Virus record (IMG/VR): IMGVR_UViG_3300036398_003487
Location: 91,989 to 155,988 of that record
DNA length: 64,000 bases
DNA from: a virus
Reading direction: 5' to 3' (one strand)
Shown here: piece by piece, positions 6,592 to 64,000 of the stretch
Position numbering within the stretch: the stretch's first letter is position 1
Layout of the letters: each line of letters begins with the position of its first letter
Made by a program: the position numbers and the translations under genes
The notes under the pieces: model-generated
Databases searched by the model: none
The model's input: only the letters and a program-made list of their open reading frames with translations
What the model was told of the DNA's origin: nothing

Positions 6592-6660
6592 TGCGTAGTT
6601 ATTTTATTAAATAAATATGTAGATGTTTAGAAAAATTATTTTTTTTTGGTTTTTAAATAA

Positions 6661-6686
6661 AAAAAGGGGACTTTCGTCCCCTTTTA
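6661..6686 (-). terminator. Rho-independent terminator
   Basis: AAAAAGGGGAC, TTTC, GTCCCCTTTT forms a stem followed by a T-run on the minus strand. It separates the protease/DUF4494 genes from the scaffold-capsid pair. This could let scaffold and capsid levels be set independently, although no clear promoter is visible in 6592-6660. Confidence 0.75.
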
Positions 6687-6707
6687 AATTTTTTTTAAAC
6701 TTTGTAA

Positions 6708-6923
6708 TTACTCAAACACTTCGTCAATTTTACTTTCACTTACTGAAGTGATTCTCCAATCATAACTAAATGATTTGTAAGCTTCAGTAACTTTAGCTTC
6801 TACATCAGTAACAGAATAACCTTTTACAAGTTTTTCTTCTCTTACTTTTTTAATTTTTCCTGTGTTCTCATCTGGCAAATCATATTGAATTTTTGCCACA
6901 AAGTATTTTTCGTCCATTTCCAT
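6708..6923 (-). CDS. DUF4494-like small protein
   Basis: 71 residues: YFVAKIQYDLPDENTGKIKK, then KLVKGYSVTDVEAKVTEAYK. This matches my memory of the N-terminal core of the Bacteroidota DUF4494 family (an A-K-V-x-Y strand, then a V-T-D/E-A-E helix), though it is about half the usual length. Role unknown. It lies 6 nt after the prohead protease gene and is probably co-transcribed with it. Confidence 0.65.
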   Translation of the reverse strand: MEMDEKYFVAKIQYDLPDENTGKIKKVREEKLVKGYSVTDVEAKVTEAYKSFSYDWRITSVSESKIDEVFE

Positions 6924-6929
6924 AATTAT

Positions 6930-7649
6930 TTATTTTTTTAAATAATCGGAAAGTCTTCCCATTAAATCAAGCGATTTGTTAACTGTTCTTGCGGCTTTCA
7001 TTTCATTTTCTTCTTGTAGGTTCTCTTCAAACGCAAATCTTCCATCAGGTTCAGTAAATAAATAAGCTCCAGGTGTTGATGGTGAAGATACCAAGTCAAA
7101 ACAAATTAATTCAAAATCATCTTGAACTTCATTTTGGTCACCTACCTTTTTTAATGAACCTACCCCTCTTGATGATATACCTAACGTTACACCTAATCTT
7201 AATAGGTTTGCAGCTTGGTCACCCTTTGTTGATACAATACCTCTTTCATGAAACCCTGGTGAAGTCAGAAGTAATAGTTTACCTAATAGAACATTACCAT
7301 CCCACCACATCTCTGTAATCATGTGTGATACTCTATCTAAATCTATCAATGAAGACTCAGGGTGGTTAAGTTCAGATAAGGATGTTTTCTTACCTATATA
7401 ATTTTTAATATAGTTATCCGATTCTCTCTTTAGAATTCTTTCGGGATATATTCTACCATTTCTATTTGGTGTATTATATTTTTGTAGAACGGCATAAAAT
7501 TCAAATGGTTTTGAATAATCTTTAAAATCCCTACTTTCTTGTAAGAATGTTTGATTATGTTTTTCTGTTGGGGAAACATATCCCGCATCCATCTCAATTA
7601 AAATACCCTTTCCTGTCTCTCTTGGACCTAATATTTTATAATTTTGCAT
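6930..7649 (-). CDS. gp21: Prohead core protease (T4 gp21-like, peptidase family S77)
   Basis: 239 residues. The protease matures the head by cutting scaffold, capsid and core proteins after (L/I)xE. Candidate catalytic residues are visible: His96 in ELNHPE and Ser159/160 in LGISSRGVGS, with the conserved FYAVLQKYNTPNRNGRIYPE strand-turn near residues 51-70 typical of the family. It lies between the portal and scaffold genes, as in T4. An internal FLQESRDF may be an autocleavage site. Because many proteins in this window end their N-terminal segment with this consensus, this enzyme probably processes a large set of packaged proteins. Confidence 0.93.
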   Translation of the reverse strand: MQNYKILGPRETGKGILIEMDAGYVSPTEKHNQTFLQESRDFKDYSKPFEFYAVLQKYNTPNRNGRIYPERILKRESDNYIKNYIGKKTSLSELNHPESSLIDLDRVSHMITEMWWDGNVLLGKLLLLTSPGFHERGIVSTKGDQAANLLRLGVTLGISSRGVGSLKKVGDQNEVQDDFELICFDLVSSPSTPGAYLFTEPDGRFAFEENLQEENEMKAARTVNKSLDLMGRLSDYLKK

Positions 7650-22308: not shown

Positions 22309-22703
22309 GGGGATGTTTTTGGATTTGACAGGTATGAATCTGTCATAAAACGCACGTCGGGGCTAAACTAACCCTGTAAAACTGGTTTAAAACACAAACG
22401 GCAACACAATTGCAAAACTTTCTACACTCGGTTTAATCCGTACTGAAGAAGTAACTGTAGCCTAATCTAAGATTAGTATACAACGGGGTCGGTGAGCATA
22501 TAACCTTGCAACAGAAGCTTGTACCGTGGTGTGGTTTCTATCCGAAAAGGAACAAAGTGGAGGATTAGTTCTCAGTAAACCGAACCACTATAAAATAAGG
22601 GAATTGTGAAGTTTCGGATTGTTTAGAAAAACAATGACCTAAACGTGTAGTGTTTTATGGTCGACATATTTGGACCGGGGTTCGAATCCCCGCATCTCCA
22701 CCA
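22309..22703 (+). ncRNA. ssrA: tmRNA (ssrA) with unusual 21-residue tag
   Basis: The 5' GGGGATG pairs with 3' CATCTCC (22693-22699) to form the acceptor stem, followed by discriminator A and an encoded CCA. GGATTTGACAGG near the 5' end and GGTTCGAATCCCC near the 3' end are standard tmRNA D- and T-arm elements. The best tag frame runs 22400-22462 and stops at TAA 22463, inside a stem-loop CTAATC-TAA-GATTAG. It encodes 21 residues, starting GNTIAKLS and ending EEVTVA. Starting with Gly fits Bacteroidota tags, but the C-terminal VTVA differs from the usual ALAA. An alternative frame from 22401 gives ATQLQNFLHSV. No smpB gene is visible in the window. Confidence 0.92.
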
Positions 22704-25914: not shown

Positions 25915-25991
25915 TGGTACCCCCGAAGGGATTCGAACCCCTGACCCACAGATTAGAAATCTGTTGCTCTATCCTACTGAGCTACGAAGGC
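25915..25991 (-). tRNA. tRNA-Arg (anticodon TCT)
   Basis: 77 nt including an encoded CCA. Acceptor GCCTTCG pairs with CGGGGGT (several G-U pairs). The anticodon arm is ACAGA-TTTCTAA-TCTGT with anticodon TCT, and the T-arm reads AGGGGTTCGAATCCCTT. It decodes AGA, the dominant Arg codon of this AT-rich genome, which suggests codon supplementation. It lies at the end of a short minus-strand operon with two small genes and is followed by a terminator. Confidence 0.95.
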
Positions 25992-42890: not shown

Positions 42891-44657
42891 CTATGCTTGG
42901 TTATATGTAGTATAATCACCCTTTGAATATAAACTATACTCATGTTTTCTTCTCTTTATTAATTCACCATCTTTCCATCCAGTTGTAAAGTGTTTTTCTA
43001 TTTCCGGATTTCTGTTTGGGTTGGGGTTAATTTGTATTGCTTTCTTTAAATCTGATTTTGCGTAACCACCAAAATTATATTTTAATGAACACAAGGCATC
43101 AAATTGATGTTGTGTCAATTTATTATGCCCACCACCATAAGATAAAATTTCAGGTTCTACTATATTTTTAACATAGTTATTAACTTTTTTTGAGGCTTCC
43201 GGTTCAGTTATTGTGTCGCCAGGTCTTACAGGTCTACCATTAATTTTTATTTGACCATACCCGATAGTCAAAATACCGTTTGTGTCTTTATACGGTTCAG
43301 AACGAAATCCTTCTTGTTTTTTAATGTAGTCAATAGCCCTTGTTGAACATCTTGTTGCGTAACTATCGCTTGAATTTGATGACTTTTTATCTAAAGATTT
43401 TTTAGCAGTCTCAAGTCCAGATTTAATTGTTTTATTTATATCACTAACAACACCTCCCGAATCTGGTTTCATTTGGTCTTTTGGTTGTCCCATAGAAGAC
43501 CATTTATCCATAAAATTCGGTTCTTCTTTTTTATCATCAGAACCAAAATATTTATTATAGAAATCCATAGTCGATGTCTGTTCATTAATATTTGGTTTTA
43601 AAACAGTCATAGCTTCAGGAAAATCTTTATTCAAAACGTCCTCATCTTTATTTGTATAAGGAATATTTTGTAAAACATATCTAATTGAATTTAAACCTGA
43701 AATTTTCTTATCATTTGAATCCAAAACAACCCAAGGATGGTTAACTGTTGATGTCTTATCAAAAAGTTTTTGTTTATACTCTGTAAACTTCTCCCACACA
43801 TCTTGCATCTTCTCATCATTCTCAGAATACTTCCAATATTTTAATGGGGACTTTTGTCTAAAATCAAATCTCTTGGCTTGAGTTTCTTTATCTATTGAGA
43901 ACCAAAGTTTAAATAGATAATCACCGTCAACAACTAATGACTCCTCAAAGTCCTGAACATTATCCATAAAGTCTTCATACTCTTCTGAAGAACCGTAACC
44001 CATTACAGGTTCCACTAAACCTCTATTATACCAACTTCTATCAAAGAAGTTTATCTTACCTCTTTCAATTTGATTACTGTATCTATCCCACCAGTTCTTT
44101 CTTTCGTCAGGTGTTGGAATACCGAGAGCAATTACTTTATAATATCTTGGATTTAAGTTTTCAGTAAACTTCTTAATTGTTGAACCTTTACCCGCCGAGT
44201 CTCTTCCCTCAAAAACAATAATAACAGTTTTACCTGTTTGTTTTAACCATTCTTGTAATTTTAAAAGTTCAACCTGTAAGAAAAATATTTCTTTCTTGTA
44301 AATGTCTTTATTTAAAATTGATGGTTCCTCTTCAGGACTAACAACTTCTTTTTTAGTTTTTCTTTTTTCTAATGACTTAGTTAGTTGTTTAAAAAATTCA
44401 AAAACATTAATATCCTTATTACCTTTTAATTTCAAAGTTTTTAATATACCTCTTGTAAGTAATCCAAAATCAACTAAACCTTCTTTTGAAAAACCGTCAA
44501 TTTTATTAATAAATTTTTGGATTTGAGCACTATAAACTTTGTTGTCTTTTAAAACCGCAACAAGAGATTTAACCTCAGGGCTATACTTTGGTTTTTCAGA
44601 TTCTGTCAAACCCATATTATTTTTTATCTTACTAACTTCAGTTAATAAATTCCTCAT
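42891..44657 (-). CDS. Polyphosphate kinase 2 - lysozyme fusion
   Basis: 588 residues with two enzymes in one frame. Residues about 115-330 are PPK2 (polyphosphate:nucleotide phosphotransferase): Walker A FEGRDSAGKGST (149-160), then NPRYYKVIALGIPTPDER, Walker B-like INFFDRSWYNR (202-212), and SPLKYWKYSENDEKMQDVWE. Residues about 435-580 are a T4-type lysozyme (GH24): KKQEGFRSEPYKDTNGILTI-GYG with Glu449, Asp458 and Thr464 in the positions of T4 E11, D20 and T26. The N-terminus MRNLLTEVSKIKNNMGLTES has LTE sites, and NINEQTS (about 356-362) between the domains gives a further INE site that could separate the enzymes. It is probably packaged in the virion. Confidence 0.9.
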   Translation of the reverse strand: MRNLLTEVSKIKNNMGLTESEKPKYSPEVKSLVAVLKDNKVYSAQIQKFINKIDGFSKEGLVDFGLLTRGILKTLKLKGNKDINVFEFFKQLTKSLEKRKTKKEVVSPEEEPSILNKDIYKKEIFFLQVELLKLQEWLKQTGKTVIIVFEGRDSAGKGSTIKKFTENLNPRYYKVIALGIPTPDERKNWWDRYSNQIERGKINFFDRSWYNRGLVEPVMGYGSSEEYEDFMDNVQDFEESLVVDGDYLFKLWFSIDKETQAKRFDFRQKSPLKYWKYSENDEKMQDVWEKFTEYKQKLFDKTSTVNHPWVVLDSNDKKISGLNSIRYVLQNIPYTNKDEDVLNKDFPEAMTVLKPNINEQTSTMDFYNKYFGSDDKKEEPNFMDKWSSMGQPKDQMKPDSGGVVSDINKTIKSGLETAKKSLDKKSSNSSDSYATRCSTRAIDYIKKQEGFRSEPYKDTNGILTIGYGQIKINGRPVRPGDTITEPEASKKVNNYVKNIVEPEILSYGGGHNKLTQHQFDALCSLKYNFGGYAKSDLKKAIQINPNPNRNPEIEKHFTTGWKDGELIKRRKHEYSLYSKGDYTTYNQA

Positions 44658-44977: not shown

Positions 44978-45394
44978 TTAACGTCTTCTAATGTGTCTTC
45001 TGATACTCTCAGCCATTGGGTCTCTTGGTTCCTCGTCTTCCATATCCATATCCATACTATCAACATCAGAATCCATTTCTTCACCTGAATTCATTTTATT
45101 ACTTTCGTAATCTCGGATAATAGACTTAAGTTCCATTGCTTCTTCTTCTTTACCTTCAGTATTTCTTAATTGACCGTAAAGTTCCTTAAGATAATCCCAT
45201 CCTGCAATACCTAAAAGAGCAATAGTTGTTCCAACCATTGTCGCAATTGCCCCACCAGTACTCATTGCTTCGGGATTAAAGAAGTTTTCAACATCTTCAT
45301 TAACTCTGTTTCTTTTATTTCTTTTTGTTTCGTTAACTACTGTTTTAATTAATCTAGTTAATTCTGATTCTGATAATCTTACTACTTTTTTCAT
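44978..45394 (-). CDS. MKKxVRL-family protein with one membrane segment
   Basis: 138 residues. The N-terminus MKKVVRLSESELTRLIKTVV-NE is a member of the repeated targeting-like segment (LSE|S, VNE|T). A hydrophobic helix (GGAIATMVGTTIALLGIAGW) follows at about residues 47-66, then an acidic Met/Asp region (DSDVDSMDMDMEDEEP) and an Arg-rich end (SIRRHIRRR). Function unknown. Confidence 0.75.
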   Translation of the reverse strand: MKKVVRLSESELTRLIKTVVNETKRNKRNRVNEDVENFFNPEAMSTGGAIATMVGTTIALLGIAGWDYLKELYGQLRNTEGKEEEAMELKSIIRDYESNKMNSGEEMDSDVDSMDMDMEDEEPRDPMAESIRRHIRRR

Positions 45395-45419: not shown

Positions 45420-45992
45420 TTATCTTGGAGCACCTCTATATGATGTGTTCGGTTTAATTGGTACTACATAATCAGGAGTTCCTTTATAAGTACAAAACGG
45501 TCTTGATGTAATTACTTTTGCTAAATCGTTATTTAGATAATCTTCTTTAATACCACCTTTTCTTTGGAAAGGTTGATTAATTTCCCCTAATCCTTTTTCA
45601 AATGCTGAGTTACAATTCCATCTGAATTTAATAGGTTCACTACGTCTTTTTACATTCAAAAAAGTACCTGTATAACCATCAACTCCCGCACCTGTCGAAA
45701 TATCTTGAACTGTAAATTCAACTGTTGGTAAATTATTAATTGTTGTTATTCCAACTTCTTTTATTTTATAGTTTTCAGAAGTTCTTTTACCCTTAAAAAT
45801 TCCGCTTTCACCTGTGTATTTGTTTAAACCATAAGCATTAAACATAAGAACTTCAGAACCTGTAAGACCTGATACTTCCTTACGAAATTGGTCAGGTGTT
45901 TTTGCAGTTAAATCATCGTTTTCTTTTATAACTTTTTTAATTAAATTAATAAGTTCATTTTCTGTTAATCTAATAACTTTTTCTTTTTTCAT
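45420..45992 (-). CDS. MKKxVRL-family protein, 190 aa
   Basis: The N-terminus KEKVIRLTENELINLIKKVI-KEN is a targeting-like segment. The body is a beta-rich domain (EVGITTINNLPTVEFTVQDI, TGTFLNVKRRSEPIKFRWNC) with Cys at about 125 and 167, possibly a jelly-roll or lipocalin-like fold. Likely packaged; function unknown. A 25-nt T-rich gap separates it from the next gene. Confidence 0.72.
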   Translation of the reverse strand: MKKEKVIRLTENELINLIKKVIKENDDLTAKTPDQFRKEVSGLTGSEVLMFNAYGLNKYTGESGIFKGKRTSENYKIKEVGITTINNLPTVEFTVQDISTGAGVDGYTGTFLNVKRRSEPIKFRWNCNSAFEKGLGEINQPFQRKGGIKEDYLNNDLAKVITSRPFCTYKGTPDYVVPIKPNTSYRGAPR

Positions 45993-52178: not shown

Positions 52179-52490
52179 CTAAAACTGCATGTTAATTCTC
52201 TTAATCTCTATTCCAAACTTATCTTTATAATATTTCTCAATACCTTCACCAACTGAATTTCCAAATAAAACACGCATCTTTTCAAAAAAAGAATAATCAA
52301 TCCATAATGTCCCGTGATTATTTCTGTGGGCAATTCTTACAGGGTGACCATCACTATCAACGTCTTTCCTACTAAAGAAATGAATATACCCATCATCTTT
52401 GTCAATGTTCATTTCAACATCACCATAGGTAGCCTCCATGTACCTCTTAATAACCTCATTTAACTTACTCTCGGTAATAATATATTTCAT
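52179..52490 (-). CDS. MKYIITES-family protein, 103 aa
   Basis: N-terminus MKYIITESKLNEVIKRYMEA with ITE|S. The body is a small alpha/beta domain (DVEMNIDKDDGYIHFFSRKD, then RIAHRNNHGTLWIDYSFFEK) and a final helix EGIEKYYKDKFGIEIKRI. Same architecture as the paralogues at 60879-63744: targeting-like segment, beta strands, a helix with an (I/W)xxxxxxxFxI end. Function unknown. Confidence 0.7.
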   Translation of the reverse strand: MKYIITESKLNEVIKRYMEATYGDVEMNIDKDDGYIHFFSRKDVDSDGHPVRIAHRNNHGTLWIDYSFFEKMRVLFGNSVGEGIEKYYKDKFGIEIKRINMQF

Positions 52491-52505: not shown

Positions 52506-52817
52506 TTATATAAAAATAACATCCCACACCGCAGTGGAATCTCCGTTCTTATCTTTAGGGAATAATAATTTAAACATAGTGTCAATATTATCATCAATCT
52601 CTGTACCCTCGTCATAAGCGTGATAACTACGACCACCTGTATTTAGTATAATTTGATATACAGGATATGTCTTATCTTTAACTTTCCAATTTTTTGTTTC
52701 TATCGAGACATCACCATTAAACCATTCGTATTTAGATAATAGGTTCTCAAGATATTCTTTAAAGAAATTAACTTTCCTCATTTGTAAATTCTGAGACTCG
52801 GTGATAATGTATTTCAT
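52506..52817 (-). CDS. MKYIITES-family protein, 103 aa
   Basis: N-terminus MKYIITESQNLQMRKVNFFK with ITE|S, then ENLLSKYEWFNGDVSIETKN, and a beta-rich body with SYHAYDEGTEIDDNI. Begins with the same upstream junction (TTATTGTAATATG-type AT-rich spacer) as its neighbours and is 15 nt from the gene at 52179. Function unknown. Confidence 0.68.
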   Translation of the reverse strand: MKYIITESQNLQMRKVNFFKEYLENLLSKYEWFNGDVSIETKNWKVKDKTYPVYQIILNTGGRSYHAYDEGTEIDDNIDTMFKLLFPKDKNGDSTAVWDVIFI

Positions 52818-52830
52818 ATTCTACCTAATA

Positions 52831-53538
52831 TTATTTAGCCCTTTTCACCCTTTTTTCAGGAGGTCTTACAAATTTAATATTATTTGTTTCTTCCCAATCC
52901 TCAATAAATTGTCTTGCAACTGTTTCAGGAATTCGTTTATCCATTAAATGTTCAATTGCGTCTTGAATTAATGTGTTTCTTGGGTCATCAAAATTTTTCA
53001 ATTCAGAATCAACCAATTTAGCCATTCTTGAATCTTTTAATTTTTTAGGTAGTGGTTTAGTACCAATCTTATGTGGTATTCTTGTTAATAAGTTTGTTCC
53101 TACTAATGCTGCGGTAATTATACCAGCAACCATTGCGCTATCAATGTCTTGGTGTTGTGGATTCAAGGTATTAATAGTAACTGCTCCTGTCATAAGAGAC
53201 AATACTGTAGTTGCAAATCGTGTGATTATTTTTGTAAGCTCAAGTTTATTTTTTTCAGCTTCGGTATCAACAGTGATACCCCTTCTAGAAAACCCTATTG
53301 ATTCACTAACCGTATCACCTTCAATAACACTATCAACAACATCTTCAGCAACGTCTTTAAATTCATCTTCCCCAATAGAGTTGTATAGTTTCCCAAGAGT
53401 TAACAAATCTTCTTTTGATATGTTATTAAGAATTATATTGGTTACCTCGTCAGTTATTTGTTGTTCCTCGTTTTCACGAATAATACGTTTAACAATTCTT
53501 GTCAAATCAGATTCTGTTAATTTTACAATCTTTTTCAT
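52831..53538 (-). CDS. MKKxVRLTES-family membrane protein, 235 aa
   Basis: N-terminus MKKIVKLTESDLTRIVKRII-REN. Helical acidic region to residue 75, then ISESIGFSRRGI (ISE/SES sites) and two hydrophobic helices (ITRFATTVLSLMTGAVTINT; AMVAGIITAALVGTNLL). The C-terminus is basic and ends KRVKRAK. Probably packaged and membrane-interacting after delivery; inference. Confidence 0.74.
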   Translation of the reverse strand: MKKIVKLTESDLTRIVKRIIRENEEQQITDEVTNIILNNISKEDLLTLGKLYNSIGEDEFKDVAEDVVDSVIEGDTVSESIGFSRRGITVDTEAEKNKLELTKIITRFATTVLSLMTGAVTINTLNPQHQDIDSAMVAGIITAALVGTNLLTRIPHKIGTKPLPKKLKDSRMAKLVDSELKNFDDPRNTLIQDAIEHLMDKRIPETVARQFIEDWEETNNIKFVRPPEKRVKRAK

Positions 53539-53553
53539 ATTACAATAAATACT

Positions 53554-54210
53554 TTAGAAATCACTACCAGCTCCACCACCTCCGAAACTACCTCCACCAA
53601 ATCCCCCAAAACCATTATTGTTGGTGTAATCATCATCATCAAAATCATAATAAACTCCATAACGGGGAATTGGTTCGTCTTCTTTCTTCTTATGTGGTGA
53701 AACACGAGATAAATTAATTTGAGCTTTTTCCAACTCCATATGTAATTTTTTGTCGGTTTCAAATATATTTTTACATAACCCGACAAACTTCTGAAACAGA
53801 GGGTTATTTTCATCCATAAAACCCATATCACCATAACCCTTTGTATGTTTTGGAATCTGAACAATAACATCAGAAGATGGAATACGACCAACATCCATAT
53901 TTTTTCTAACATTAAACACAACAACACTTGCAGTTGTCTTGATACCATCAATGACTATCTCACCCTTAGAATAAATTACAAGGTTTACATCCTTTTGATG
54001 TGTTCTACGAGCATCTGTACTAAAATCACCAGAATCAATAGAATCAACAACAAACTCAAACAACTTCAGTTTTCTATCATCCGTTAACTTTAAAGGTTTA
54101 AAGAATAACATCTTCTGCTTCAATTTATCTGAGAACGACTGTTCTTCTTCTATAACTCTTTTAACTATTTTAACCAAATCTGATTCAGTTAATCTTACAA
54201 TCTTTTTCAT
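53554..54210 (-). CDS. MKKxVRLTES-family protein with Gly-rich tail
   Basis: 218 residues from ATG 54210 (MKKIVRLTESDLVKIVKRVI-EEE). The central domain is TPM-like or alpha/beta (KLFEFVVDSIDSGDFSTDAR, ASVVVFNVRKNMDVGRIPSS). The end is very Gly-rich (GFGGFGGGSFGGGGAGSDF), similar to tails of the TPM-type membrane-associated proteins. Function unknown; probably packaged. Confidence 0.72.
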   Translation of the reverse strand: MKKIVRLTESDLVKIVKRVIEEEQSFSDKLKQKMLFFKPLKLTDDRKLKLFEFVVDSIDSGDFSTDARRTHQKDVNLVIYSKGEIVIDGIKTTASVVVFNVRKNMDVGRIPSSDVIVQIPKHTKGYGDMGFMDENNPLFQKFVGLCKNIFETDKKLHMELEKAQINLSRVSPHKKKEDEPIPRYGVYYDFDDDDYTNNNGFGGFGGGSFGGGGAGSDF

Positions 54211-54231
54211 ATTACAATAAATATATACCAA

Positions 54232-54276: not shown

Positions 54277-54849
54277 TTACATATCATTCCAACGTTTGGG
54301 ATTAAACCATCCAAGATGTCTACCGGTATCCTCAAAACTTTGACGATTATTATCATCATAATCTTCTTCCTCCTCATCTTCTTCACCAACAATAGCATAG
54401 TTCAATTCGTCAAGAACAGAATACTTATCAATCTCATCGTCATTAGCATTTAAAAAGATATCACGACCAAGATACTTAACCAATGGTATACCCTCTTCAA
54501 CATAAGCATTATATAACTCAATAATATCACTTGGTGATGCCGATTCACCTCCAAATTCCATTCTAACTCCCTTGAAACCTTTAGATATGAAAATATCCTT
54601 TTCTTCATGTCTATTTTCATTAACTTTACGTTTTGGTTTATCTTTATTATCCATATCTCTAACAATAGAAAATACATCCTCAAGTTTAGATAACGCTTCT
54701 TTCTTATCTTCATCATTAATTGAATTTCTCAACGAATGTAATAATGTATATAAATCTTTTCCTTTTTCTTTTGGAGAAGACTCTTCTTTAACAACTCTTT
54801 TAACTATTTTAACCAAATCTGATTCAGTTAATCTTACAACTTTTTTCAT
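54277..54849 (-). CDS. MKKxVRLTES-family protein, 190 aa
   Basis: N-terminus MKKVVRLTESDLVKIVKRVV-KEE, identical over 15 residues to the gene at 53554 apart from conservative changes. The body is helical and acidic (KALSKLEDVFSIVRDMDNKD), with VRMEFGGESASPSDIIELYN and an acidic EDEEEEDYDDNN stretch before the end DTGRHLGWFNPKRWNDM. Function unknown. Confidence 0.72.
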   Translation of the reverse strand: MKKVVRLTESDLVKIVKRVVKEESSPKEKGKDLYTLLHSLRNSINDEDKKEALSKLEDVFSIVRDMDNKDKPKRKVNENRHEEKDIFISKGFKGVRMEFGGESASPSDIIELYNAYVEEGIPLVKYLGRDIFLNANDDEIDKYSVLDELNYAIVGEEDEEEEDYDDNNRQSFEDTGRHLGWFNPKRWNDM

Positions 54850-59238: not shown

Positions 59239-60053
59239 TTTTTCTTGATTTTGTCAAAATGTCAGGGGAGCGTCAGATAAGGGATAATCCCCTTGACGGG
59301 TTTTAGACATATTAACAACTATAAATATAGTGTATATTATGTATATTGTCCATAGGTAAATGTTCCCACTTTTTACCACTGACGTATATGTGAGAGGGGT
59401 TTTTGGTTATATGAAAAGTGAAAAAAGTGGTCCTCCTGATAGTGTGAGAAGGGTTTTTTTAACTATATACATTTTCCAGCTAAAAATAGGATGTAACAAT
59501 AAAGTGGCGTGGACAGACTTTAGTTGTTTAAATCCTTCAACGAAAAGTGTATTTTATAGTGTCTTCAAGGGGGTTTTTAAGATTTCCCCTTACCATATAG
59601 ACACATGATATGGACAATTATAGTGGTGGTAAAAAGTGGGACATAATGTGTTATATAAGGGATAACCCTGTAGGGTTATGTTCCCTATAAAGAACATTGT
59701 CCCTTTCACATTCCACCATATATTTTATACCCTAACAGGTATACTAATATCATCTTATATACCCTTTAGGGTATTTCATTATCCCGATGGGGTACAATAC
59801 CATTAACAGTAATATGTTATGTCCCTTCATAGTATGTGTCTTTCATTATGGGGGATTATTATAGATTAGTGTTGTACGTTAATTATAGATTCATACAATA
59901 GGGGAAATTAGGAAGTTCTTGACCTGATGAAATTAGGAAGTAAACAAATGAATGAACCCATTAGTGTAATGACCCGAAGGGGAATGGAACGACACGATAG
60001 TGGAATGGGGGAATGAGTTTGTTTAGTTCATAATTTCTTACTATATTTGCTCT
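59239..60053. other. 815-bp non-coding region with inverted and direct repeats
   Basis: No convincing gene. Two motifs recur in inverted orientation: ATTGTCCATA (59345-59354) against TATGGACAAT (59609-59618), and TGTTCCCACTTTTTACCACT (59361-59380) against AGTGGTGGTAAAAAGTGGGA at 59622-59641. A direct repeat GTGAGA(G/A)GGGTTTTT occurs near 59390 and 59444, and GAAATTAGGAAGT twice near 59904-59942. Short symmetric strings such as ACCCTGTAGGGTT and ACCCTTTAGGGT also appear. This could be a replication origin or a recombination region. A promoter begins at 60019. Confidence 0.55.
60019..60049 (+). promoter_or_regulatory. Bacteroidota-type promoter, near-leaderless
   Basis: TTG at 60019-60021, exactly 20 nt, TATATTTG at 60042-60049; the ATG of the array gene starts 4 nt later. 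Confidence 0.8.
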
Positions 60054-60848
60054 ATGGTTATTACAGATAGATTAAAACAACTTATTTTTAAACACCTATA
60101 TAAAGAGTTGGGTGATTGTGAGATTATTCCTTATAATGGGTCTATATGGTTTATTAATAGGGATAATAAATACTGGTACTTTGAACTTGATGAGTCAGGT
60201 ACTTTATGGTGGAGATACGATTTTTTTAATTCGTTTTTTCAAATATTCTCCATGAGTTTGGATGATTTTTGTCCTGTTCTATCTTCTTGGGTGGAAGAGG
60301 TCTTAAATCATAAGGTATCCACAACCTTCATTCCACTTCCAATTACAACGGACAAGGTGGAAGAGGTCTTAAATCATAAGGTATCTACAACCGTGACAGG
60401 TAGCGGTGTTGAAAGCATGATGGTGGAAGATGTATTAAATCATAAGGTATCCACAACGTGCGATGTTAAAGTTCGTGTTCCTTGGAAGGTGGAAGAGGTA
60501 TTGAATAGTAAGGTATCCACAACTAATACTCACAATGCTCATATCCGAACACGGGTGGAAGATGTATTAAGTCATAATGTTAAGGTGTCTACAACTACCA
60601 TTCTCAAATACCCCGAACATTCATTGGTGGAAGAAGTATTAAATCATAAGGTATCTACAACCGATTCACTTGATTACGTTGGAAAAATTGAGGTAGAAGA
60701 GGTATTAAATCATAAGGTATCAACATTGGAAGCATATTCTGGACCCTTCACAAGAGGGGTGGAAGAGGTATTAAATCATAAGGAATGTACAACGGATGTA
60801 GAAATGTCTGTTATGAACTATGTGATGGAACAGGTCTTAAATCAATAA
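60054..60848 (+). CDS. Repeat-array protein: constant 12-residue and hypervariable 10-residue blocks
   Basis: 264 residues. Residues 1-79 are homologous to the paralogues that follow (MVITDRLKQLIFKHLY against YLITESQLDRVIFRYL; IWFINRDNKYWYFELD against IYFVNSEDDKYAQIRY), but ITE is ITD, losing the cleavage Glu. From residue 80 the chain is an array of WVEEVLNHKVSTT-type blocks: eight full copies and a final VMEQVLNQ. Each pair is separated by ten residues that share no similarity (for example FIPLPITTDK, VTGSGVESMM, CDVKVRVPWK). The constant block is the counterpart of the C-terminal WVENTLQMRVTYT of the gene at 60879. A strong near-leaderless promoter drives it. Function unknown; a binding or decoy protein with variable loops is one idea. 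Confidence 0.85.
   Translation: MVITDRLKQLIFKHLYKELGDCEIIPYNGSIWFINRDNKYWYFELDESGTLWWRYDFFNSFFQIFSMSLDDFCPVLSSWVEEVLNHKVSTTFIPLPITTDKVEEVLNHKVSTTVTGSGVESMMVEDVLNHKVSTTCDVKVRVPWKVEEVLNSKVSTTNTHNAHIRTRVEDVLSHNVKVSTTTILKYPEHSLVEEVLNHKVSTTDSLDYVGKIEVEEVLNHKVSTLEAYSGPFTRGVEEVLNHKECTTDVEMSVMNYVMEQVLNQ
60291..60848 (+). repeat. CRISPR-like array: 35-bp repeats, eight 31-nt variable segments
   Basis: Repeats start at 60291, 60357, 60423, 60489, 60555, 60627, 60693 and 60759 with a degenerate ninth at 60825. They read GTGGAAGAGGT(A/C)TTAAATC then ATAAGGTATCCACAAC; ends GTGGA/TCCAC are inverted. The fifth repeat has a 6-nt in-frame insertion. All eight intervening segments are exactly 31 nt (60326-60356 through 60794-60824), mutually unrelated, with about 43 percent G+C by my count, higher than the surrounding genes. 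The period of 66 nt is 22 codons. Changes among repeats are mostly synonymous (GTC/GTA, TTA/TTG, GTA/GTG, TCC/TCT). No cas genes are nearby. Confidence 0.93.
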
Positions 60849-60878: not shown

Positions 60879-61208
60879 ATGAAATATCTTATCACAGAAT
60901 CACAATTAGACAGAGTAATCTTTAGATATTTGGATATTAAGAACTTTATTCAGATTAAAAGAGGAAACGCAATATACTTTGTTAATTCGGAAGATGATAA
61001 ATATGCCCAAATCAGATATGATAGAAACGATGGTTGGTGTTATATACGCCATGGATTAATTTACGAAATTTCTTCTTTCTTTTCTTTGGACATATATGAT
61101 TCTAAGGAAGTTATCGGTAGATGGGTTGAAAATACTCTACAAATGAGGGTTACTTATACCCGTTTGGTCTTTCACGATGTGAACAATTTGTTTAAAATAC
61201 CTAACTAA
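60879..61208 (+). CDS. MKYLITES-family paralogue, 109 aa
   Basis: MKYLITESQLDRVIFRYLDI, KNFIQIKRGNAIYFVNSEDD, then CYIRHGLIYEISSFFSLDIY, DSKEVIGRWVENTLQMRVTY. The four paralogues at 60879, 62729, 63056 and 63391 share this plan: ITE|S segment, a two-strand body and a C-terminal WVxxTLxxxV motif that corresponds to the repeat of the array gene. Function unknown. The gene overlaps the phosphoesterase gene by 8 bp. Confidence 0.72.
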   Translation: MKYLITESQLDRVIFRYLDIKNFIQIKRGNAIYFVNSEDDKYAQIRYDRNDGWCYIRHGLIYEISSFFSLDIYDSKEVIGRWVENTLQMRVTYTRLVFHDVNNLFKIPN

Positions 61209-62621: not shown

Positions 62622-62708
62622 AATAATAAGTATTAAAAACAACCTCAAACCATATTATCATATTCTTATTAAATTATTAACCCAATATGTATTGTTCAGT
62701 TTTATGTG

Positions 62709-62716
62709 TATCTTTG
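62709..62716 (+). promoter_or_regulatory. -7 promoter box for the paralogue cluster
   Basis: TATCTTTG, 12 nt before the ATG at 62729; the upstream TTG is at only 14 nt, so the -33 element is not convincing. Confidence 0.6.
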
Positions 62717-62728
62717 TATTTATATATA

Positions 62729-63043
62729 ATGAAATACCTTATAACAGAATCTAAATTAAATCAGGTAATCTTTAAGTACTTGGATAATCAGGATTTTATT
62801 CAGATTGAGAAAAATGGTGGTGTATACTTTATTAATTCAGAAGGTGACGAATACGCTCAAATTAAATCTAGTATAACTAATGAATGGTGTTATATATCCA
62901 CTAAATTAATTGATGAGATTTCTTCTTTATTTTCTTTACATTATTTAGATTCAAAAGAAGTTATTGGTAGTTGGGTTAGTGATACTCTCCAAATAAAGAT
63001 TTCTTACACCCTACCCACTGAACGATTGAGAGCACCTAACTAA
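62729..63043 (+). CDS. MKYLITES-family paralogue, 104 aa
   Basis: Start at ATG 62729; an in-frame ATG 42 nt upstream lies in the promoter region. MKYLITESKLNQVIFKYLDN, QDFIQIEKNGGVYFINSEGD, then WCYISTKLIDEISSLFSLHY and IGSWVSDTLQIKISYTLP. About 50 percent identical to the gene at 60879 by eye. Twelve nucleotides separate it from the next copy. Confidence 0.72.
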   Translation: MKYLITESKLNQVIFKYLDNQDFIQIEKNGGVYFINSEGDEYAQIKSSITNEWCYISTKLIDEISSLFSLHYLDSKEVIGSWVSDTLQIKISYTLPTERLRAPN

Positions 63044-63055
63044 TACTTATATATA

Positions 63056-63391
63056 ATGAAATACCTTATCACCGAATCACAATTAGATAGAGCAATCTTT
63101 ATTTACTTGAACCATCAAGATTTTATTCAAATTAAAATAGGTCTTTTAGTATACTTCGTTAACTCTGAAGATGATGAATATGCTCAAATCAAAAATGGTA
63201 ATTTTGGTTGCGTAATAAGTCCCGAATTAATCAAGAACATCTCATCGTTATTTTCTTTGGACAAATCTGATTCTGAATCGGCTATTGGTAGGTGGGTTGG
63301 GAATACCCTACAAATGAAAGTTACAAATACCACCAAGGCTGGTTTGATGACCCAGTCTTGGTTGAAAATACCTAAGAATATTTATATATAA
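63056..63391 (+). CDS. MKYLITES-family paralogue, 111 aa
   Basis: MKYLITESQLDRAIFIYLNH, QDFIQIKIGLLVYFVNSEDD, then CVISPELIKNISSLFSLDKS, IGRWVGNTLQMKVTNTTKAG. Same plan as neighbours. The stop TAA and the next ATG share one base (TAATG), so the copies are translationally coupled. Confidence 0.72.
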   Translation: MKYLITESQLDRAIFIYLNHQDFIQIKIGLLVYFVNSEDDEYAQIKNGNFGCVISPELIKNISSLFSLDKSDSESAIGRWVGNTLQMKVTNTTKAGLMTQSWLKIPKNIYI

Positions 63392-63744
63392 TGAAATACC
63401 TTATCACCGAATCAAAATTAGAGAAAGTAATCTTTAAGTATCTTGATATTCAGGACTTTGTGATGTATGACAACAAGAAGAAATTCAGCAATTATATATA
63501 TTTCTTAAACAGTGAGTCAGATAGGGAATCACAGATTAGTGTTTATACTAATAACGCTTTTGGTGAAGTTAGGAATTGGGTGTTTGTAAATTCTGATTTG
63601 ACTGATAAATTATCTACCTTCTTCTCCATTGATAAATCGGATTGTTTGGATATAATCAAAGCATGGGTTAATAATACTTTGGGTATTAGTGATAGTACGG
63701 TTTGGGATGGTCCATATGATTACAGATTAATGGTTAACGAATAA
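63391..63744 (+). CDS. MKYLITES-family paralogue, 117 aa
   Basis: MKYLITESKLEKVIFKYLDI, QDFVMYDNKKKFSNYIYFLN, then VNSDLTDKLSTFFSIDKSDC and IKAWVNNTLGISDSTVWDGP. More divergent body but the same N-terminus and the WVNNTL motif. The stop overlaps the next ATG (TAATG). Confidence 0.72.
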   Translation: MKYLITESKLEKVIFKYLDIQDFVMYDNKKKFSNYIYFLNSESDRESQISVYTNNAFGEVRNWVFVNSDLTDKLSTFFSIDKSDCLDIIKAWVNNTLGISDSTVWDGPYDYRLMVNE

Positions 63745-64000
63745 TGAAATACTTAATTACAGAATCACAGTTAGAAGCATTTTTACTTAGGAGGTTTACA
63801 ATGGATGAATTGGAATCACTTAGGGATGATTATAACTACATTATGGATGAAGAAGATTTTGAAGATTCCGCCGACAGAGATGACTACGCTTATGAATTAA
63901 TTGAAAAGTTCGTTGATAGACATAGAGGTGAAGAGTTTTTTCAATATGATGATGATACTGAATTCTATAATAAACGTTCCGAATATATTAGAGCGTTACT
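63744..64000 (+). CDS. MKYLITES-family gene, partial
   Basis: Open to the end of the window. MKYLITESQLEAFLLRRFTM, DELESLRDDYNYIMDEEDFE, then DDYAYELIEKFVDRHRGEEF. The N-terminal segment is the same (ITE|S) but the body is an acidic helical domain unlike the other paralogues, so the leader-like segment has been joined to a different cargo. Confidence 0.72.
   Translation, partial: MKYLITESQLEAFLLRRFTMDELESLRDDYNYIMDEEDFEDSADRDDYAYELIEKFVDRHRGEEFFQYDDDTEFYNKRSEYIRAL

Follow-up and report, generated by a model that had tools for sequence, protein, structure and literature searches.

How does an array with the geometry of a CRISPR locus come to lie within the open reading frame of a phage protein? 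The question is raised by a gene in the window, a stretch of 64,000 nucleotides (positions 91989-155988) that forms the terminal part of a 155,988-bp IMG/VR virus record. The first ~79 residues of this 264-aa ORF constitute a separate domain, and its C-terminal part is the array, with the following components:

60054-60848, forward strand: array-bearing gene, 264 aa, made up of a ~79-aa N-terminal domain, eight complete repeat-plus-segment units and a final, truncated repeat
60054-60289, forward: N-terminal domain; predicted helix, four strands and two helices (AF2 pLDDT about 73-87)
60290-60325, forward: repeat 1 (36 bp), leader-proximal
60326-60355, forward: segment 1, 30 nt, FIPLPITTD[K]; common to L007 and L010
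60356-60391, forward: repeat 2
60392-60421, forward: segment 2, VTGSGVESM[M]
60422-60457, forward: repeat 3
60458-60487, forward: segment 3, CDVKVRVPW[K]; common to six phages
60488-60523, forward: repeat 4
60524-60553, forward: segment 4, NTHNAHIRT[R]
60554-60595, forward: repeat 5, 42 bp with a 6-nt in-frame insertion; variant also in L007, L009, L010 and L013
60596-60625, forward: segment 5, TILKYPEHS[L]
60626-60661, forward: repeat 6
60662-60691, forward: segment 6, DSLDYVGKI[E]
60692-60727, forward: repeat 7, degenerate, ending ACATT
60728-60757, forward: segment 7, EAYSGPFTR[G]
60758-60793, forward: repeat 8, degenerate
60794-60823, forward: segment 8, DVEMSVMNY[V], the oldest; terminal also in the more divergent L022 and L024
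60825-60848, forward: truncated terminal repeat, MEQVLNQ and stop

The repeats and mutually unrelated segments that the initial annotation described are both found in this ORF, with boundaries that differ from the 35-bp repeats and 31-nt segments read there: the base preceding the 35-mer is G in 134 of the 142 distinct segments of the window and its relatives, and the unit is therefore a 36-bp repeat (GGTGGAAGAGGTnTTAAATCATAAGGTATCnACAAC) with a 30-nt segment, giving a period of 66. The constancy ascribed to the unit holds for the segments, all eight of which measure 30 nt, but not for the repeats, as the insertion in repeat 5 creates a 72-nt unit. Likewise, segment G+C is 40.8% rather than the ~43% first given, and it does exceed the background as claimed (30.9% for the whole window). 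The window segments resemble each other no more than shuffles do (best pair 13/30, a value reached by 55% of shuffles), whereas five matches to the repeat with at most three mismatches were found against 0.00 expected from shuffles. An independent assembly, L006, carries the window array with 100% identity, and of the other arrays one is found unchanged in two assemblies and another in three; the array is therefore not an assembly artefact. Upstream of the gene lies a long stretch with no assigned gene (59240-60050), in which short G/C runs and possible palindromes are visible by eye.

Two scans of IMG/VR viral contigs recovered 48 non-identical arrays of two to nine units in related phages, whose genomes often hold two to four of them in tandem. 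Across these 48 arrays, 219 units measure exactly 66 nt and five more represent the 72-nt variant, with most other unit lengths sitting near the 3' end, and the segments fall into 142 distinct, mutually unrelated clusters. Near-identical direct repeats with unique spacers of constant length, the defining geometry of a CRISPR array, are thus observed over 219 units and 142 segments, and the homology over the whole unit length that typifies ordinary tandem repeats is absent from the segments. A degenerate pattern of the repeat DNA, searched across all of IMG/VR, matches solely contigs with these array genes; copies of the repeat or array were not found among INPHARED phages, nor was the gene in the bacterial genomes searched. 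The carriers form a family of tailed phages whose hosts are probably Bacteroidota. One member, L015, has a third tandem paralogue (6629-7261) whose repeats are strongly degenerate and which looks like an array in decay.

These arrays gain 30-nt segments in a polar fashion. Among the 21 arrays that have segments in common with others, array-unique segments occupy the first position in 14 and the last in none (0/21; permutation p<5e-5); their share is 29% over the next two thirds after the first position and 2/19 near the end. Pairs of shared segments are never inverted (0/253), and no segment is present twice in one array. Concomitantly, mismatch to the array consensus is 1.15 among repeats of the first half but 3.74 among those of the second (p=5e-6). 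The arrays thus display both the leader-polarised acquisition and the distal decay that are characteristic of CRISPR arrays. Repeats of one array resemble each other, while different arrays have different versions (HKVSTT, SKVSTT, CKVNTT, CKVETT), the pattern that would result from copying the leader-proximal repeat at every insertion. The constant 12-residue scaffolds with swappable 10-residue blocks proposed in the initial annotation, as well as its suggestion of segment acquisition, agree well with this picture: whole 30-nt segments are gained and lost as units among relatives, and new ones appear at the 5' end with the shared order kept. Neither homology among the segments, which would mean tandem duplication, nor slow drift is seen, shared segments being near-identical between phages and the others wholly absent.

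The N-terminal domain occupies the position where a CRISPR leader would be. It is homologous (hhalign E=4.6e-9) to single-domain neighbours of the MKYLITESQL type, and the window holds several such paralogues:

60879-61208, forward strand: single-domain paralogue without array; its C-terminal WVENTLQMRVTYT is the counterpart of the repeat
62687-63744, forward: three further single-domain paralogues (ORFs 62687-63043, 63056-63391 and 63391-63744)

The last element of the MKYLITESQL-type neighbours, GRWVENTLQMRVTYT, is the counterpart of the array repeat WVEEVLNHKVSTT. Judging from this sequence correspondence, the repeat probably descends from the C-terminal helix-strand of a paralogous family of phage proteins. 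AF2 modelled the array region with low confidence (about 50), and that part was left uninterpreted. Pfam and PHROGs hold no family for the array gene and Rfam gave nothing above threshold, while the fold search returned no PDB fold and, from BFVD, unnamed phage homologues only. More broadly, many otherwise different small proteins start with a MKYLITESQL-like or a MKK(I/V)V(R/K)LTES(D/E)LTRIVKRV-like motif, which look like a shared sorting or processing tag:

44978-45394, 45420-45992, 52179-52490, 52506-52817, 52831-53538: small proteins of the window with either N-terminal motif
53554-54231, 54277-54849, 60879-61208, 62687-63998: further small proteins with either motif

Elsewhere in the window, the phage carries a tmRNA gene (22309-22703, forward strand; tag AKLSTLGLIRTEEVTVA) and a tRNA-Arg gene (25915-25991, reverse strand), and an ORF on the reverse strand (42891-44657) resembles, by eye, a fusion of a polyphosphate kinase 2-like with a lysozyme-like domain.

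Where, then, do the segments come from? Their G+C content is 40% against 30.5% for the genome. When 81 segments were searched against 301 Flavobacteriaceae genomes, eight, all from related phages, matched conserved Flavobacteriaceae genes on both strands and in several frames. In the sense orientation, TFGG corresponds to the rsmH motif TFGGGGHSKE in 13/301 genomes (seven read, all rsmH; best 27/30), AGKA to secA, and RRRR and DPRK to topA and cysD, each by a single- or two-genome match. The antisense matches are QDSL to rplM (five genomes, three read), TLIS to an aldehyde dehydrogenase, VNPG to an MFS permease and TPIT to an RND-type permease (seven genomes, one read). Two of the four sense segments are in frame, and residue agreement in the source frame is 8-10 of 9-10; the matches, at 25-27/30, are to relatives of the host and not to the exact donor. 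A reversed control (37/43 set-A segments) gave 8 hits in 8 genomes with a best E of 0.014, against 16 and 35 hits for the two real segment sets, the control having been built for the first set only. As with CRISPR spacers, these eight segments of related phages are pieces of other DNA, and a bacterial chromosomal origin is very probable for them on the strength of the sequence matches; we extend it to all segments with moderate confidence. The window's own eight segments gave nothing convincing against the Flavobacteriaceae genomes, and for them a host origin is suggested by analogy. The flanks of the eight traced sources, as seen in the relatives' genomes, have no common motif, TFGG alone showing NNNNNTAAA in 4/7 relatives.

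Several other matches and sources were considered. Matches L204, L205 and L200 were judged to be due to chance. An origin from the phage itself found no excess of matches over shuffles in the 156-kb contig and its relatives, and the 81 segments gave just isolated 21-22-nt chance matches against INPHARED; five segments searched exactly in IMG/VR each occur solely in their own arrays. No plasmid matches were found for 52 segments, about a third of the total. An in-frame coding origin had been suggested by codon-phase composition, for which a plasmid of 47% G+C served poorly as a model, and was dropped because the traced sources are found on either strand and in several frames.

Taken together, we consider it likely that 30-bp host pieces are captured by a CRISPR-adaptation-like process at the leader-repeat junction, with duplication of the repeat, inside a protein-coding gene. 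The landing site would be the 3' part of a small coding phage gene, where the junction reads TTGG/GTGGAAGAGG...ACAAC (the slash separating leader and repeat). In each event, a 30-bp piece of host chromosome would enter beside the conserved upstream domain, which serves as leader, and the 36-bp repeat would be duplicated. As 36 and 30 sum to 66, which is divisible by three, a piece that lacks a stop leaves the frame open, and selection would retain only phages that captured such a piece. Old units would decay at the 3' end, and recombination between repeats would remove internal ones. The predicted product has an unchanging N-terminal domain and, after it, a series of 22-residue units, each a constant 12-aa scaffold with a 10-aa block encoded by host DNA.

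Cas1-Cas2-type integration has this signature: pieces fixed at 30 bp, a duplicated 36-bp repeat and extension at a single end. Neither Cas1 (14 phage records) nor a reverse transcriptase (30 phage records) was found in these incomplete records, and the phage arrays in this respect depart from CRISPR loci with their associated cas genes. Nor does a neighbouring integrase gene accompany all 31 compared loci, the array family being the sole family that they have in common. We therefore infer, with moderate confidence, that the enzyme is the host Cas1-Cas2, of the II-C/VI-B type, using host DNA freed during infection. Breakdown of host DNA is a feature of T4-like phages and would supply fragments to the integrating enzyme.

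The closest parallel is with the II-C/VI-B CRISPR systems of Bacteroidota (PMC8092290), which share the 36-bp repeat and 30-bp segment with a period of 66, polar growth at the leader with a degenerate distal end, and GTTGT at the leader-distal repeat end; capture of host chromosomal DNA, as in the phage arrays, has been reported for VI-B in F. columnare (PMC8092290). A II-C array of Flavobacterium sp. ACAM 123 (L188) has 36-bp repeats at a period of 66, and 33/44 first repeats of the phage arrays end in ACAAC, i.e., GTTGT on the other strand. In contrast to these systems, the phage array lies inside a translated ORF with no cas genes found alongside, and beyond the GTTGT end its repeat resembles II-C repeats poorly. 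A further parallel is off-target Cas1-Cas2 integration, which creates new CRISPR loci when spacers are inserted at a repeat-like site away from a CRISPR locus; the phage site is also such a site but, unlike those, is established across many lineages and kept in frame. Off-target integration of this kind is cited in PMC9456107 and PMC11788318.

Two layers of selection bear on what the array is for. At the protein level, none of the 142 segments has an in-frame stop, whereas a random segment would be stop-free in 62-73% of cases (0.73 measured; 0.62 estimated), so that the chance of all 142 being so is 1e-20 to 1e-30. Distinct repeat-like sites lie in the open frame in 224/225 cases; the sole one out of frame (L067, position 559) is found in a truncated tail just past the array-end stop codon. 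Differences between copies of shared segments comprise 19 nonsynonymous to 17 synonymous codons against an expected 3.06:1 (p=0.003, with variants of one segment not fully independent), and shared segments, which evolve as slowly as the repeats, look purified at the protein level. The coding selection suspected in the initial annotation is thus borne out by both the stop count and the codon ratio, and, unlike a non-coding CRISPR array, this one is an open reading frame under selection. The open frame and the purified segments speak for a repeat protein that is in use. At the DNA level, the repeat employs GTG in 21/21, GAG in 19/19 and AAG in 18/18 instances, as against phage-wide usages of 8%, 18% and 19%. 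In the first repeat of 22 arrays, the codons for V1 (GTG), E2 (GAA), E3 (GAG), N6 (AAT), K8 (AAG) and T11 (ACA) are invariant, while those for V4, L5, V9 and T12 vary; single-codon columns make up 6/11 testable columns in the repeat versus 2/38 in the leader (p=7e-4). The invariance of rare synonymous codons implies that particular repeat bases are constrained as DNA.

This constraint beyond codon preference, along with the host derivation of the traced segments and the several arrays per genome, would also suit a decoy for host CRISPR adaptation, wherein the phage repeat absorbs prespacers and the encoded protein need only be harmless. We regard a decoy as unlikely, since a frame that is open right up to its end, along with purified segments, points to a protein of some importance, and a search of 396 Bacteroidota genomes for a host CRISPR with a near-identical repeat found none close to the phage repeat.

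The geometry, the polarity, the leader-distal GTTGT and a weak hairpin in the window repeat are consistent with a virus-borne CRISPR array that acts as guide RNA (e.g., with host Cas13b or Cas9), its reading frame being incidental. Virus-borne mini-CRISPR arrays do exist; they are non-coding, with one or two spacers mostly against related viruses, and have host-like repeats and leaders (PMC6858448). The phage arrays resemble them as viral arrays without cas genes, with spacer turnover and presumed use of the host adaptation machinery, but have 2-9 units, are coding and carry traced segments from bacterial chromosomal genes. Given the purifying selection at the protein level, a guide-RNA role is less likely, and it becomes quite improbable with the stop-free segments and in-frame repeats, the capture of both strands of host genes, and the match of traced segments to the host lineage and not to competing phages. 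Another kind of interspaced phage repeats, the TIGR arrays, encodes short dual-spacer guide RNAs used with Nop-domain Tas proteins (PMC12385481); the phage arrays have 30-nt single segments instead, and no match over the cut-off to a Nop-domain Tas protein was found in 18 records.

Recombination also contributes: internal unit losses occur, and array-unique segments are found at some middle positions as well, a sign of replacement by recombination. One might dispense with an integrase altogether and invoke homologous recombination between the repeats of phages or paralogues, which offer 36 bp of homology and could account for the replaced middle positions of L016 versus L018, together with rare illegitimate entry of host DNA. 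We hold this as a sole explanation to be very improbable: it accounts neither for the exact 30 nt nor for the 5' bias of array-unique segments, the array-unique first segments are absent from all other arrays of the set, and by eye the flanks of traced sources have no obvious microhomology to repeat ends. Diversity-generating retroelements, too, diversify the C-terminal part of a phage protein, by means of a reverse transcriptase and adenine-specific point mutations. The phage arrays differ in that whole segments are replaced, a reverse transcriptase was not seen in the 30 records, and no template-like copy was found in the phage genome or its relatives.

Finally, an ordinary tandem-repeat protein, i.e., an ancient 22-aa duplication with diverged linkers, conserved or gene-converted scaffolds and present-day loss and shuffling, would sit well with the derivation of the repeat from a paralogue's C-terminal element, the internal losses and the modest array lengths, but is scarcely credible, as linkers drifting as slowly as the repeats could not have erased homology between neighbours, the two paralogous arrays of L026 have the terminal segment alone in common, as does L065 with L066, segments match host housekeeping genes, and their length is fixed at 30 nt.

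The arrangement of CRISPR-like capture within a coding gene is real and recurrent and, as far as we have searched, undescribed in the literature. The protein might display many peptides or, alternatively, be a by-product of action as a spacer sink. On balance, we lean towards a reading in which CRISPR-type integration serves as a protein-writing device of the phage: a host-supplied or other integrase would keep adding host fragments in frame, yielding ever-changing multi-peptide viral proteins that preserve a record of host DNA. In CRISPR systems, captured DNA becomes an RNA guide; here, it appears to become protein sequence, with the phage apparently benefiting. If true, this would represent a second use of CRISPR-like adaptation and a natural case of new coding sequence arising from out-of-frame fragments of host genes. 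It would also provide a readable record of the hosts infected by a phage lineage, which would help link uncultured phages to their hosts.
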